From Leptotrichia massiliensis (GTDB lineage Bacteria; Fusobacteriota; Fusobacteriia; Fusobacteriales; Leptotrichiaceae): a DNA stretch of 64,000 nt. The notes below the pieces were generated by a model, which made no database searches, had not been told where the DNA came from, and saw only the letters and a list, made by a program, of their open reading frames with translations. The stretch is from contig NZ_FNVZ01000005.1 in assembly GCF_900104625.1 (NCBI RefSeq), forward strand, positions 930,001 through 994,000, given 5' to 3'. The position numbers and the translations under genes were made by a program. Positions 19,624 through 63,068 of the stretch are shown piece after piece; position 1 is the first letter of the stretch, and every line of letters starts with the position of its first letter.

Positions 19624-20271
19624 ATGAGCTATCAAACTATAATTGTCGGAATTGCTGGAGGTACTGGTTCTGGTAAGACTAGCGTTACTCAAGCCATAAT
19701 TAAAAACTTGGAAAAAACAGGTATTTACTCAATTTTGCTTGAACAGGATTCATATTACAAGAGAAATGATCACTTGACTTATGAAGAGCGAACTGCATTG
19801 AATTATGATCATCCAGATGCAATTGACTTTGACTTGCTTGAAAAGCATATACTTGCATTGAAGGATGGAAAATCTATTGAAAAGCCTATTTATGATTTTC
19901 AGGTTCATAACAGAGTTGATGAGACTCAGCATATTGAGCCTGCAAATATAATTATTGTTGAAGGAATTTTAGTCCTTGCAATATCAAAAATTAGAAGTCT
20001 TTTTGATACAAAAATTTTTGTTGATACTGATGATGATGAAAGACTGCTTAGAAGAATCGAACGAGATTTAAACGAACGGGCAAGAAGTTTTGAAAGTGTA
20101 AAAAATCAGTATATAAATACAGTGAAACCAATGCATTTGGAATTTGTTGAGCCTTCCAAAAGATATGCAGATGTTATAATTCCACGCGGGAAAGATAACA
20201 AAGTAGGTATAAATATGGTAGCAAGCAGACTTAGGTATCTATTTAATAAAATGAATCAAGAACAAAAATAA
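19624..20271 (+). CDS. udk: uridine kinase
   Basis: 215 residues, usual length. It phosphorylates uridine and cytidine with ATP or GTP in the pyrimidine salvage pathway. The P-loop AGGTGSGKT is at residues 11-19. LEQDSYYKRNDHLTYEER and NYDHPDAIDFDLL are family hallmarks, as is DERLLRRIERDLNERARS. GGAGG precedes the ATG. First gene of a plus-strand run with the CoA-disulfide reductase-like gene and K+ channel; the three functions have no obvious link. Confidence 0.96.
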   Translation: MSYQTIIVGIAGGTGSGKTSVTQAIIKNLEKTGIYSILLEQDSYYKRNDHLTYEERTALNYDHPDAIDFDLLEKHILALKDGKSIEKPIYDFQVHNRVDETQHIEPANIIIVEGILVLAISKIRSLFDTKIFVDTDDDERLLRRIERDLNERARSFESVKNQYINTVKPMHLEFVEPSKRYADVIIPRGKDNKVGINMVASRLRYLFNKMNQEQK

Positions 20272-20280
20272 CAAAAAATG

Positions 20281-20325
20281 AAAGGAGTGTATGATTTTAT
20301 AAATTATCATACAAAAAATATTATG
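20281..20325 (+). promoter_or_regulatory. Shine-Dalgarno separated from the start codon by a hairpin
   Basis: AAAGGAG (20281-20287) lies 35 nt before the ATG at 20323. Between them GTATGAT (20289-20295) and ATCATAC (20306-20312) form a perfect seven-bp stem with a 10-nt loop. With the hairpin folded, 11 nt remain between GGAG and ATG, close to the spacing of normal starts in this window. Similar layouts occur at 44,189 and 63,022. Confidence 0.5.
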
Positions 20326-21660
20326 AAAATAGTTGTAATTGGAGGCGGAGCAGCTGGAATGATGTTTTCGACTCAATATAAAAAAGCAAATCCTGAAGAT
20401 GAGGTTATTTTATTTGAAAAATCATCTTATGTGGCTTGGGCTGGATGTCCAACACCTTATTTTATTGCTGATGAATTGAAAAAAAGTGATGTCCTTCATG
20501 GAACACCTGAAGATTTTATAAAACGTGGTGTTAATGTAAAAATTCATCATGAAGTTACAGAAATAAATTTTCAAAATAAAACTGTAACAGTAAAAGGGGA
20601 TGAAATTAACGGAATAATCTTTTACGACAAACTGGTAATTGCCGTTGGGGCAAAATCATTTGTACCAAATATTACGGGCTATTCAAAGGATTTGGAAAAT
20701 GTGTTTACTTTATCTCATGCAGAACATGCCTTTAAAATAAAAGATTATCTTAATGAAAATAAATCAAAATTAAAAAATGCAGTTGTTGTAGGAGCTGGAT
20801 TCATTGGGCTTGAAATGGCTGAATCATTTAAAAAAAATGGATTAAATGTTACACTTATTGAAAAAGCTGATCAAATTTTTCCAAATGTTTCTGAAAACTT
20901 GAAAAAAAGAATTTATAAAGAAATAGAAAATAATGATGTTGAATTAAAATTAAACTCTGGCGTTTCAGAAATAATTTCTGAAAATAATGTAGCAAAATCG
21001 GTAAAACTGGATAATAGCGAAACTGTAGACTTTGATATTGCATTATTTAGTATTGGAATTACTCCAAACATTGATTTCTTGCCGAAAGAATTAAAAACTG
21101 ATTCTGGAAAAATTGTTGTAAATGATAAATTTGAGACAAATATTAAAGACGTGTATGCAATTGGAGATTGTATTTTTAATAAATATTACAAAACAAACAG
21201 AAATTTATACGCTCCATTTGGAGATGTGGCAAACAAGCACGGAATGTTCCTTGCAAAATATCTATCTGGAAAAAACGTTAGCTGGAAAGGGTTAATCCGT
21301 TCTTTTGCAACCTCATTCTATGATGTAAAACTAGCACAAACTGGACTTTCCCTAAAAGAAGCCCTGCAATTAGGTTACAATGCTGATATAGTTTCAATGA
21401 AAGCAATGTATAAAAATTCTGGCTTTGAAGACTCTGTTCCTGCAAGTGCCGAAATTATTTACGATAAAGATAAAAAAATCATTCTTGGTGGAGCAATGGT
21501 TGGAAAAGAAGCTGTTGCACAATTTGTTGATCAGATGGCTATTGTTATTGCACTTGAAACACCTATTGAAAAATTCATAGAAATTGACTTTGCATATTCT
21601 CCAACAAATGCAAGTGTTTGGAATCCGTTATTAGTAACATATAGAAAGGTTATTAAATAA
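20323..21660 (+). CDS. CoA-disulfide reductase / NADH oxidase-family flavoprotein
   Basis: 445 residues. Flavoproteins of this family reduce CoA disulfide or oxygen with NAD(P)H in redox defence. The FAD-binding motif VVIGGGAAGMM starts at residue 4; the redox cysteine Cys42 is in AWAGCPTPYF; the NAD motif VVGAGFIGLEMAESF and the second FAD motif YAIGDC are present. The start at 20323 places the Rossmann strand at the N-terminus as usual. An in-frame ATG at 20278 would add 15 residues but has no ribosome site. A strong AAAGGAG is set apart by a hairpin. A second family member (nox) is at 57330. Confidence 0.88.
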   Translation: MKIVVIGGGAAGMMFSTQYKKANPEDEVILFEKSSYVAWAGCPTPYFIADELKKSDVLHGTPEDFIKRGVNVKIHHEVTEINFQNKTVTVKGDEINGIIFYDKLVIAVGAKSFVPNITGYSKDLENVFTLSHAEHAFKIKDYLNENKSKLKNAVVVGAGFIGLEMAESFKKNGLNVTLIEKADQIFPNVSENLKKRIYKEIENNDVELKLNSGVSEIISENNVAKSVKLDNSETVDFDIALFSIGITPNIDFLPKELKTDSGKIVVNDKFETNIKDVYAIGDCIFNKYYKTNRNLYAPFGDVANKHGMFLAKYLSGKNVSWKGLIRSFATSFYDVKLAQTGLSLKEALQLGYNADIVSMKAMYKNSGFEDSVPASAEIIYDKDKKIILGGAMVGKEAVAQFVDQMAIVIALETPIEKFIEIDFAYSPTNASVWNPLLVTYRKVIK

Positions 21661-27913: not shown

Positions 27914-28351
27914 TTAAATATTTGGTGAAATCGTTCCTTTTAACCGATCATAAACCCATCCACCTTTTTTATCCTTTTTTGTTACAATTCTATTGCTTCT
28001 TTCCCTAGAATCCTTTATGCTTTCAGGAATTTCATAAATTTTCTCACTTCCATAAAAAGTCCCAAAATTATACACTCCATCTGAACTCTTTACATCATGA
28101 AGATTATTTTCTAATCCCTCCAATTTAGGATTAGAACCTGTTTTTTCATTAAATTTTTTTACTGCATTTTGTAATTTTATAGTTTCTACCTGAATATCCG
28201 CCGTTATAAGTTTATCTACTTTTCTTGACAATAAAATCACAACATTTAGCATTGCGATAAATACAACTATAAGAAAAGTTATTCCACGAAGAGCAATTTT
28301 TCTAGTCATTTTTGCTCTATTATTTACATAATAATCGTTATCAAAAGCCAT
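27914..28351 (-). CDS. single-pass membrane protein, pseudopilin-like tail
   Basis: 145 residues with one membrane helix (about 20-45) and an extracytoplasmic domain. The C-terminal GGWVYDRLKGTISPN resembles the end of type IV pilin or type II secretion pseudopilins, but the N-terminus lacks the G-F-T-L-E prepilin cleavage site. The helix KLQNAVKKFNEKTGSNP also fits the pilin alpha-helix region. It lies between yqeH and the MBL hydrolase. Family assignment is tentative. Confidence 0.65.
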   Translation of the reverse strand: MAFDNDYYVNNRAKMTRKIALRGITFLIVVFIAMLNVVILLSRKVDKLITADIQVETIKLQNAVKKFNEKTGSNPKLEGLENNLHDVKSSDGVYNFGTFYGSEKIYEIPESIKDSRERSNRIVTKKDKKGGWVYDRLKGTISPNI

Positions 28352-28514
28352 TTTCCCGCATGAAATTTACAAAATTTTAAATTTAATAATTACAATGTAA
28401 AAAATCACGCCCTCCTTCTTTTAGATTTTTTTATTTCAATTTTCCTATTTTTTTAGTCTGTTTTTTCAAAAATCAAACCTTCACTAAATTCAAGTTTCTA
28501 ATAATTTCTTAAAT

Positions 28515-43900: not shown

Positions 43901-44189
43901 CTCCTTGTTCCATTAATTGAATCAGTTCAAGATTTGTATTTTTTAATAATTTATCATTCTCTTTTCGTGTTTCCCTAACCTTTTGATGCATATTTTTTAT
44001 TGAAGATGAAATCTCCAGTTTTTGATTTTCTATGCTTTTATCTGTAGTTTGTGAAAATAAATTACTTGTAATTGATACTACTCCTGTCATTAAAAATGTG
44101 ACCAATGCAGAATCTGTGTATTTAAAATCTTTTGTTTTTTTTGCAAACGCACGTAGATCTTTTTGCAAATTTCTAAGATTATTCGTCAT
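37911..44189 (-). CDS. type V autotransporter, fusobacterial N-terminal type (copy 1)
   Basis: 2092 residues from the ATG at 44189 (MTNNLRNLQKDLRAFAKK), conserved in the paralogue at 51453; a GTG at 44237 would add 16 residues. Order: long signal region with hydrophobic ALVTFLMTGVVSITSNLFS; coiled coil ending ELIQLMEQGDHVVKSPWSSW; proline-rich linker; a large passenger of short N-x-G-x-I beta-helix repeats; a C-terminal 12-strand-type barrel (last ~290 residues) ending in FRAIY with terminal aromatic. The passenger would be displayed on the cell surface for adhesion. Its only cysteines seem to be a pair in SYCNYMTGCG. The start lies behind a hairpin separating it from AAAGGAG. Confidence 0.93.
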   Translation of the reverse strand: MTNNLRNLQKDLRAFAKKTKDFKYTDSALVTFLMTGVVSITSNLFSQTTDKSIENQKLEISSSIKNMHQKVRETRKENDKLLKNTNLELIQLMEQGDHVVKSPWSSWQYGINYFNNNWNGTYKGRGDKKTKYPYEGIFERSSDIYERTISPDSENYGLLSRNRRPNFASGSAAGYGIASFKPVREPIIPFEVRAGIRPRSINKSAITIADKTAITPTLPEAISFTPPSPVIGLPELPELPAPPTFNIELGSYCNYMTGCGRSVSGGAYNYDFDTYAVSVLANGTVRGTLVDGRPSLRHSWNTTGSVLLKSYFDTEGNYDLTTNLTVNSENPLNNAQQQSERDANRGYNAQRFLVGGSRAATMDNAPANTDVKLDNKATVNLVGPLTVGFEVQTDTYYGPNGSKREMVNTGTITDAAETTLATIGGLNKGDSAPLTLAPLLGNETVNINRTAAGYTGYKIGMILTYENNDTRVNTKYVLTNNGTIDFGGEKSIGIQVYAPGSPSLVEVANTNKMNIGGTASYGMKWSSRVGANSTMINDKSGVINVTGDAGVDSKNKPVNSLSSGIAVIETNAAKNATIRAYQGKVENKGTINVSGGKGNTAMVLIVKADDDITNSGTINVSSTEKRQNIAMRVDKGSVTTDATNETPKAINDGTINLDGDSSIGMVGTNADVVNNANKTIGTTSGKTIINGIGMATSGGTLNNSGKIELKGTGAATNVGVYMTKGTGNPSGTLAATSDISVEGDNSTGVLITNGTLNYGGTTTATGNGVTGLIIGDNTAANNAVVTTTKAGTVTVNDGAGGSAGVYEYLASDGKTKIKKGSYGIVVGKNSKLLSSPTGNVNVVADVKGAESIGLYSGEGAELEVGDHNVKAYEGAVNYDADKGKITLKGTGTSTTGQKSLLFYLGQDGSGKVSIDGAMTATIEGGTTPNERGNAFYYVGNGGDFGKSQIQGWAKNNFGDGTKTTLGNLTLNMNKGSRLFIAQNVGMDLSDTTGDAVSKATGANINGTDYKTFMLYLSKLTINQDVNLDNANDAYNQLEISNSSITNANTKTITGTKADQVAMAQENDSKLYARNKVTLSNEGTINLSGTGSTGIYAKYGELYNKATGVMSMGDKSTAIYGIEDSLIENAGKITIGSNSTGLYSEGSKTQTIKNTGEIESAGNDSVAISYKPDAALTSGTVLENTGKITMTGDRNTAMYATGTPGYTAKNSGTITLGDSASITSPNVGLYTDHNTVILQNTGKIESGNNTIGIYGHAVENSGDLKIGNAAIGIYSQSGNVNLTGGTITTGTDEAVGVYTVGSGQTVTNSGTSFNIGNNSFGFVNVGTGNTITSSISNVGLGDNNVYMYSNDKAGTVTNFTNITSTGEQNYGIYSAGTVTNNGNIDLSSGKGSVAIYSIKGGTATNNATITVGPSDVTSSLYSIGMGAGYDTIDTGNIVNKGTINVNGKYSIGMYASGAGSTATNDGDIFLNESNTTGIYADNGATAINNKNITTGSGTYTNTVGVYLGKDSKLINNPGASININAKNGVGVYLKGGIVENYGTITVNGVSKTNNSETDGKLIYEFTVPDTGKGIGGVAIDAPAGAQTATITVNGVPQIPTVVNTTGRNPISVSASSIGLYVNTSGVNYTRSIDGLQNLTSEADLIIGNEAAESTNSKYILVNDPNIINPYKTAMLSNPNIKWNVYSGSIGWIATPTLDPNDGSITSLYMAKVPYTEWAGRKATPINSLDTYNFADGLEQRYGVKDLGTRERLIFTKLNGIGNNEEVLLYQAFDEMMGHQYGNLQQRINATGNLLDKEFKYLKHNWRNPSKQNNKIKVFGMRDEYNTDTAGIINYTSNAYGVAYVHEDEKIKMGNSSGWYAGAVTNRFKFKDIGSSREDQTILKAGVFKTMSPKGDHNGALQWTIGGDAFVGINAMKRRYLVVDEVFQAKSDYHSYGAALKTDLGYDIRMSERTHLRPYGALKMEYGKFNDIKEDRGEMRLEVKGNDYFSVKPEVGMEFRYVQPLAVRTNLTVGVTAAYENELGKVGDVNNKGRVRYTTADWFGIRGEKEDRRGNGKFDLNIGVDNTRFGVTVNGGYDTKGNNVRAGIGFRAIY

Positions 44190-44247
44190 CTTTTTACTTT
44201 GTATGATAAATATATAATCAATTATATAAAATATCACACTCTCCTTT
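44187..44247 (-). promoter_or_regulatory. Shine-Dalgarno separated from the start codon by a long hairpin
   Basis: AAAGGAG (44247-44241) is 51 nt before the autotransporter ATG. Nearly all of the gap (44239-44201) folds: GTGTGATA pairs with TATCATAC and, inside, TATATAAT pairs with ATTATATA around a two-base loop. Outside the hairpin 12 nt remain between GGAG and ATG. The paralogue at 51453 has GGAG directly before its ATG, so the hairpin looks inserted. Arms share ATCATAC with the hairpin at 20,289-20,312. Confidence 0.55.
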
Positions 44248-44379
44248 CTTTTATTTTTTAATTTATTTTATTTATCCTTCTATTGCTTTAAAAATAGATA
44301 GCACGTTATTTTATCAAATTTAACAAAAAAATACAATACATTTTGATAATTTTTTTATTTAAAATATTTCAAACCAAAT

Positions 44380-62257: not shown

Positions 62258-63022
62258 TTATTTATCCTTTTTTGCTAAATAATAGCAAGCAAAACCAACA
62301 AATGCTCCACCAACAATATTCCCCAATGTTACAAATAATAAATTATAAAAATAACCATTTAATGTTATTTCTTTTGCTCCATTGTATATTATCCCCATCA
62401 TTAAAAGAGTCATATTAGCAACACTGTGCTCAAATCCAGCAGTTATAAATGCAAATAAACACCAGAATACCATTATTAGCTTAGCAGTTTCCTCTTTTAA
62501 TTTTATTCCAGCCAGAACCGCAAGACACACAAGAATATTACATAAAATTCCTTTAAAAAACAGTTCGTGAGGCAGTGCAGTAATTTTTGCCTTTGAAACT
62601 TTCACAATAAATTCTACAACAGGTTTTGAAGCAGAATTTGAAAATACGTATACTATTGCAAGCATAATTGATCCTACAATATTTCCAAGATAAGATGCTA
62701 TCCACATAAAAATCATATCCTTAAAGCTTATACCCTTGTTCAGAAGCCCTGCTACCCCTATCATATTATTCCCTGTAAAAAGTTCTGTTCCAAATACAAC
62801 TACAAGGCTAAGCGCTATTCCAAAACTAATTCCCATAAGAATTTTGTTAGTTGGTAAGCCGCTACTAACTCCACCAACCGTAAATGTCAATAAAATTCCA
62901 ATTCCAATAAACATTCCAGCCAAAAATGCAGATAGGAAGTACTTTCCTTTACCTTCTTTTAAAAGTCCAATTTTACTTTTCGCGGCATTTGTTACTAATT
63001 CTAAAGTTTCTTTATTTCTCAT
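62258..63022 (-). CDS. formate/nitrite transporter family channel, probable hydrosulfide channel
   Basis: 254 residues with six membrane helices. Typical FNT features: KYFLSAFLAGMFIGIGILLT, FGTELFTGNNMI and GFEHSVANMTLLMMGI. FNT pores carry small anions. In Clostridioides difficile the FNT gene next to asrABC encodes a hydrosulfide channel, so this one likely exports sulfide made by AsrABC. The ATG at 63022 is fixed by an in-frame TAA just upstream; the strong AAAGGAG is 39 nt away behind a hairpin. Confidence 0.9.
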   Translation of the reverse strand: MRNKETLELVTNAAKSKIGLLKEGKGKYFLSAFLAGMFIGIGILLTFTVGGVSSGLPTNKILMGISFGIALSLVVVFGTELFTGNNMIGVAGLLNKGISFKDMIFMWIASYLGNIVGSIMLAIVYVFSNSASKPVVEFIVKVSKAKITALPHELFFKGILCNILVCLAVLAGIKLKEETAKLIMVFWCLFAFITAGFEHSVANMTLLMMGIIYNGAKEITLNGYFYNLLFVTLGNIVGGAFVGFACYYLAKKDK

Positions 63023-63068
63023 TCTTTACATTGCAATAAAATCTCTATATTTTATTACATTCTCCTTT
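63020..63068 (-). promoter_or_regulatory. Shine-Dalgarno separated from the start codon by a hairpin
   Basis: AAAGGAG (63068-63062), then TGTAATAAAAT (63059-63049), loop ATAGAG, and ATTTTATTGCA (63042-63032), an 11-bp stem with one G-U. GGAG and ATG are 39 nt apart, 11 nt without the hairpin. A decoy ATG followed at once by TAA sits at 63031-63029, in frame. Confidence 0.5.

Follow-up and report, generated by a model that had tools for sequence, protein, structure and literature searches.

The DNA analyzed here, which we refer to as the window, is a stretch of 64,000 nucleotides from Leptotrichia massiliensis (G000:C5:930001-994000; G-numbers denote the genomes compared and L-numbers individual loci or leaders). 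It contains a gene encoding a pyridine nucleotide-disulfide oxidoreductase resembling CoA-disulfide reductase (CoADR), which is preceded by the uridine kinase gene udk. The Shine-Dalgarno (SD) sequence of the CoADR gene lies far upstream of the start codon, and a predicted RNA hairpin is located in between. The features of this region are the following:

19624..20271, + strand: uridine kinase gene udk (NCBIfam NF004018 and TIGR00235 above cut-off; synteny retained in relatives)
20278..20280, + strand: competing in-frame ATG, rejected as start codon (see below)
20281..20287, + strand: SD AAAGGAG, 35 nt before the start codon, read from the sequence
20288..20295, + strand: 5' arm of the putative bridging hairpin, TGTATGAT (folding; kept in 10 of 13 Leptotrichia)
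20296..20305, + strand: hairpin loop TTTATAAATT, 10 nt (length and sequence vary among species)
20306..20313, + strand: 3' arm of the putative bridging hairpin, ATCATACA (folding; kept in 10 of 13 Leptotrichia)
20314..20322, + strand: spacer between stem and start codon, AAAAATATT, 9 nt (from comparison with L013)
20323..21660, + strand: CoADR gene, 445 aa, start codon ATG at 20323

The stop codon of udk is located 51 nt 5' of the CoADR start codon. The SD is followed by the arms GTATGAT (20289-20295) and ATCATAC (20306-20312), and direct reading of the sequence confirmed this arrangement, which had been noted in a preliminary description of the window. In addition, T20288 pairs with A20313, resulting in a perfect 8-bp stem that directly abuts the SD. 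The effective spacing of 11 nt that had been proposed between SD and start codon applies when this outer pair is left out, but 9 nt remain outside the stem when the pair is counted. The SD is more than 15 nt away from the start, and no nearer SD is present within CATACAAAAAATATT. The stem is part of the minimum-free-energy structure predicted by RNA folding (z = -3.17 for the 101-nt leader), and one out of 200 dinucleotide shuffles of this leader folds equally well. By itself, the ATCATAC heptamer is unremarkable, with 10 occurrences in the window versus 9.1 expected, unlike the SD-hairpin-ATG arrangement, which is conserved between species. No match to the hairpin leader was found in Rfam. 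As for the encoded protein, its Pfam Pyr_redox_2 match starts at residue 1, which fits the earlier statement that the FAD fold begins at ATG 20323. The designation CoA-disulfide reductase-like is a fair label, but for its best NCBIfam matches the protein does not reach the equivalog cut-offs (TIGR03385: a score of 343.5 bits versus a required 578.8).

The CoADR gene is present in all 13 genomes of the genus, ten of which retain the GAAAGGAG-hairpin-ATG organization, and GAAAGGAG is identical in all ten. The SD and the stem are thus retained jointly over ten species, while the remainder of the udk-CoADR gap drifts. The other three genomes (G005, G007 and G012) contain no hairpin; instead, a GAGG- or GGAG-like SD precedes the same ATG at normal spacing, and this is also the situation in relatives belonging to other genera. 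Loss of the stem without a change of start, which had been regarded beforehand as an argument against bridging, therefore does occur; however, because the distant SD has given way to a near one in these three genomes, their leaders support bridging. The leader of G022 (L013), which reads GAGAGGAG-AAATATTTT-ATG, apparently represents the state before insertion, and the 9-nt spacer at 20314-20322 corresponds to the entire SD-ATG spacer of the hairpin-less relatives.

The comparison also bears on the start codon. Among the ten hairpin-bearing orthologs, the counterpart of the ATG at 20278 is out of frame in five, is a TTG in one, and is a TTG followed by a stop codon in another. Because an open in-frame ATG is found at this position in only three of the ten, we rejected 20278 as the start, and translation most probably initiates at ATG 20323, in agreement with the preliminary description.

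Two other gene families, encoding NUDIX hydrolases and pyroglutamyl-peptidases (Pcp), have comparable leaders. Eight NUDIX leaders contain a hairpin and a distant SD and five contain a near SD; for Pcp, these numbers are eight and one. Over the three families together, a hairpin is combined with a distant SD in 26 leaders, the absence of a hairpin with a near SD in nine, and mixed combinations were not encountered (Fisher p = 1.4e-8, a value that is descriptive since the orthologs are related). The Pcp stem is paired in 100% of the cases even though two of its six pairs have changed on both sides, including a series T-A, T.G, C-G, and in the NUDIX stem, where pairing is 98%, both sides of one pair have changed; the loop sequences are free to differ among leaders. 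Host sequences are retained on both sides in the Pcp leaders, which read TCTGAAAGGAG-AAAAAATAAA-ATG in G000 versus TCTAGAAAGGAG-[stem]-AAAAAATACT-ATG in G012.

Perfect arms recur after GGAG in further Leptotrichia leaders. A covariance model, R1, was built from 14 leaders, mostly solo hairpins; the element counts given here rest on model searches and on sampled stretches of genomes. At a threshold of E<=0.01, R1 detected at least 73 elements in the 13 Leptotrichia genomes. Elements were also found in most other Leptotrichiaceae genera, and at least 25 weaker matches were obtained in 41 Fusobacteriaceae genomes. The genes located behind the elements are unrelated and include those for CoADR, nicotinamide phosphoribosyltransferase (NAMPT), NUDIX hydrolase, Pcp, HisZ, ArgJ, PheT, CbiC, SpeE, an RND efflux transporter and an autotransporter, among others; most of these names were read by eye from the sequence, and some were tested with profiles. 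For 61 distinct elements the median distance between GGAG and ATG is 38 nt when measured linearly and 10 nt outside the stem (quartiles 8-11), and for 84 genes with a direct AAGGAG SD the median spacing is 8.5 nt (quartiles 6-10). As R1 includes the start codon, this comparison is partly built in, but this does not apply to the long open reading frames that follow the elements. In a test restricted to leaders, five of 26 leaders with a distant SD reached p<=0.02, against 0.5 expected. An unrestricted search for GGAG followed by any stem and any open reading frame start gave a count no higher than those of mirror-repeat and other-tetramer controls, and because chance swamps the pattern within coding DNA, only the leader-restricted tests are informative. 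Taken together, the conservation of the leader, the association between hairpin and distant SD, the compensatory changes in the leaders of two other genes and the effective spacing make it very probable that the hairpin bridges the distant SD to ATG 20323, as had been proposed, and the hairpin is presumably necessary for translation.

Perfect GTATGAT/ATCATAC pairs lacking a preceding SD (L034, L038 and L044) were taken as chance matches, and a micro-open reading frame starting at an ATG in the 5' arm (MIL*) was dropped, its frame and length differing between species. One bridged SD in G005 (L036/L060, G005:C1:1716050) precedes an apparent autotransporter gene that is broken early in frame.

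Four identical copies of the hairpin in G012 and one in G010 form the outward-facing end of a 1.6-kb insertion sequence (IS), whose transposase contains the domains DEDD_Tnp_IS110 (PF01548, E=3e-37) and Transposase_20 (PF02371, E=1.2e-25) according to Pfam. In all five full copies the left boundary is AAAGGAG|ATCAAC and the right boundary is ...GAAAGGAG-hairpin-CATACAAG, the hairpin end reading GAAAGGAG-TGTGTGGTATTTTATATAATTATTTATATATTTATCATACA-AG|, followed by host DNA. All five insertions occurred at AAAGG-AG, with core AG, which corresponds to CT on the transposase strand. Three of the five copies are located just upstream of a gene start. One of these genes is purL, for which empty sites are available: the sequence is AAAAGGAG|AGAAAAAAATG in G005 and likewise ...AAGGAG|AGAAAAAAATG in G007, and in G012 the element is inserted exactly at this AAGGAG| site, with purL starting a few nt beyond the IS end. 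Because of this precise insertion relative to the empty site, and because of the constant AAAGGAG boundaries, we conclude that the element probably targets the SD motif and would bring along a replacement SD and a folding spacer. Its 311-nt noncoding end contains a putative target match (CAAAGGAG) and a putative donor match (ATAGTTG); CAAAGGAG is complementary to CTCCTTT of the target strand, as expected of a guide.

In G005, G012, G010 and G044, decayed IS110 elements directly precede SD-hairpin leaders and are oriented as expected; those of G005 and G012 precede the same ABC-transporter gene, and that of G010 precedes a gene resembling murI. The IS end in G044 starts with GAAAGGAGTGTATGAT, which is identical to the leader in the window at 16 out of 16 nt, and R1 retrieves IS ends with scores of up to 52 bits. 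The preliminary description had suggested that the CoADR hairpin shares its origin with that of an autotransporter gene in the same window. The second hairpin was confirmed as well, and the idea is supported and can be extended, since both hairpins look like an IS110-family end: the autotransporter leader (44187..44248) is ~84% identical to the IS110 end over ~100 nt. A search of plasmids gave no match to the IS.

Other elements of this family were also observed. G023 harbours a more distantly related IS110 that inserts inside the SD, and its end ACAAG together with the GAG of the host rebuilds AAGGAG; several identical copies of this lineage are present in TAAGGAG-like leader sites (L259, L264, L268, L271 and L273). 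In G010, an IS110-end hairpin without SD is located between two genes (L193 and L195), in two near-identical 2.7-kb segments. A further multi-copy IS110 breaks the assembly of G010 at contig ends (L229, L231, L233, L226 and L223); it has a different end, TTGACATTATATAGTTAGTC, and no such hairpin was found within the part seen.

We favour the explanation, to which we assign a probability of about 0.72 as a whole, that the CoADR gene has a split ribosome-binding site whose hairpin is derived from an IS110 element. The anti-SD of 16S rRNA would pair with AAAGGAG while the 8-bp stem directly behind it folds, so that a 26-nt insert is looped out and the ribosome would see ~9 nt between the SD and ATG 20323 instead of 35. 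An IS110-family element inserting into an SD would displace the host SD by 1.6 kb, but the element end would supply a fresh GAAAGGAG and a hairpin restoring a working distance, and the invaded gene would remain translatable. Subsequent loss of the element body, for instance by deletion between the AAAGGAG of the host and that of the element, would leave SD-hairpin-spacer-ATG. For the genus as a whole, we consider it somewhat probable that a Leptotrichiaceae IS110 uses a guide RNA aimed at SDs and carries a replacement SD plus folding spacer at its end, so that its insertion silences nothing, and that its decay left split ribosome-binding sites in front of dozens of genes, so that bridged initiation became routine. 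At the CoADR locus itself an IS110 origin of the hairpin is likely, being weaker there than at other loci because no element body remains.

Several observations weigh against this explanation. At the window locus, udk is located directly upstream and no IS110 body was found beside the hairpin; neither was a related IS110 found in the window genome. The CoADR hairpin measures 26 nt, versus ~40 nt for the known IS ends, and a clear gene start close behind the element is lacking for two of the five full copies. Other sources may also have contributed, as the arms of some bridged SDs (63022, L151, L180 and L181) are unrelated. Moreover, changes in the CoADR stem are one-sided only (G.U), in addition to one A.C mismatch (L008), and the evidence for compensation is therefore drawn from other genes; the paired changes that the preliminary description had proposed to look for in related leaders are found in the Pcp and NUDIX families, but not in CoADR.

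The alternative that survives best accepts the split ribosome-binding site but holds that the origin of the CoADR hairpin is independent of IS110 and that the likeness reflects convergence towards an A+T-rich stem behind GAAAGGAG. The unrelated arms of other bridged SDs in the same genome and the absence of the IS from it are in line with such convergence. Yet the match to IS110 ends is close, both in the arms and in their position relative to the SD, including the 16 identical nt on the 5' side of the G044 end, R1, whose input was mostly solo hairpins, retrieves IS ends, and the orthologous leaders show a single clean insert between SD and spacer; we therefore regard convergence as a minority possibility. 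It is unlikely that the hairpin is a regulatory RNA, i.e., a riboswitch, a protein-binding hairpin or a thermometer, that controls a group of genes. The first five gene families had pointed to an NAD-related regulon, as the first matches included the NAD-linked genes for CoADR, nicotinamide phosphoribosyltransferase and NUDIX ADP-ribose pyrophosphatase, and arm sequences are partly common to different genes, but the regulon was dropped on the full list, in which the genes are unrelated. Furthermore, the loop varies from ~3 to >20 nt without conserved sequence, whereas a riboswitch is expected to need a conserved loop, the hairpin is gained and lost among close species with nothing else changed, and Rfam provides no match.

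It is very improbable that the SD is unused, with translation being coupled to termination of udk or starting at 20278, and that the hairpin is neutral. The proximity of the udk end and the in-frame position of 20278 in the window genome would allow this, but 20278 is not conserved among orthologs, the SD and stem are co-retained despite drift in the rest of the gap, and hairpin-less relatives have a near SD. Finally, the perfect GTATGAT...ATCATAC dyad and the near-identical arms at several genes could suggest a DNA operator for a dimeric repressor instead of an RNA structure, but we consider this the most improbable reading, since the arm distance varies by >20 bp where an operator is expected to need fixed spacing, the inverted repeat is always directly between SD and start, and G.U-type changes (L005, L007 and Pcp of G008) break DNA symmetry while keeping RNA pairing.

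Three other leaders in the window are predicted to contain bridged SDs:

44187..44248, - strand: second bridged SD, GAAAGGAG, long hairpin GTGTGATATTTTATATAATTGATTATATATTTATCATAC and ATG 44189, autotransporter gene (Pfam Autotransporter)
63020..63068, - strand: third candidate, AAAGGAG, 11-bp stem and ATG 63022, formate/nitrite transporter gene
28349..28417, - strand: fourth candidate, AAGGAG, GCGTGA...TCATGC stem and ATG 28351, gene for a small uncharacterised protein of 145 aa

The stem arms of the third candidate, TGTAATAAAAT and ATTTTATTGCA, are unrelated to the GTATGAT arms. The fourth candidate is weaker (one shuffle run gave p 0.06); homologs of its leader in G002 and G011 likewise have stems (L134 and L110, respectively).

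Two genes of phage T4 are documented cases of split ribosome-binding sites. Genes 25 and 38 have a strong SD located 27 and 22 nt from the AUG, a stem reduces these distances to 11 and 5 nt, and mutations that destabilise the stem lower translation (PMC3014915). The Leptotrichia leaders are similar in having a distant strong SD and an intervening predicted RNA stem. They differ in that dozens of unrelated chromosomal genes would be involved, with gain and loss between species and a likely transposon origin, and such sites seem to be widespread within one bacterial genus. Starts of this kind will be misplaced by models of gene finding or translation that require a near SD.

The Leptotrichia element shares with IS621, an IS110-family element with a bridge RNA and core CT (PMC11208160), and with ISEc21 and its seekRNA (PMC11187229), a DEDD transposase with Transposase_20, a specific target and a core CT on the transposase strand. 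Another trait in common with the IS110 family is the long noncoding end upstream of the transposase, which contains CAAAGGAG in the Leptotrichia element. Unlike IS621 and ISEc21, the Leptotrichia element appears to target the SD motif, and its end carries an outward SD and a hairpin in register with the host start. A term search of PMC11208160 and PMC11187229 retrieved no description of an SD target or of an SD-plus-hairpin end. Queries of open-access full text with partial coverage, several of them narrow, likewise did not retrieve SD-targeting IS110 elements or bridged SDs in Leptotrichia. An element that homes in on ribosome-binding sites and makes good the damage by means of a folded spacer would illustrate unusually clearly how a selfish transposon can limit the burden on its host.

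BOX, RUP and REP sequences are short dispersed palindromic repeats that form hairpins, are derived from or moved by transposons, and are found anywhere in intergenic DNA. The Leptotrichia hairpins resemble them in being short, dispersed, hairpin-forming and linked to a transposon, but differ in being located strictly between SD and start codon, where they would keep that function.
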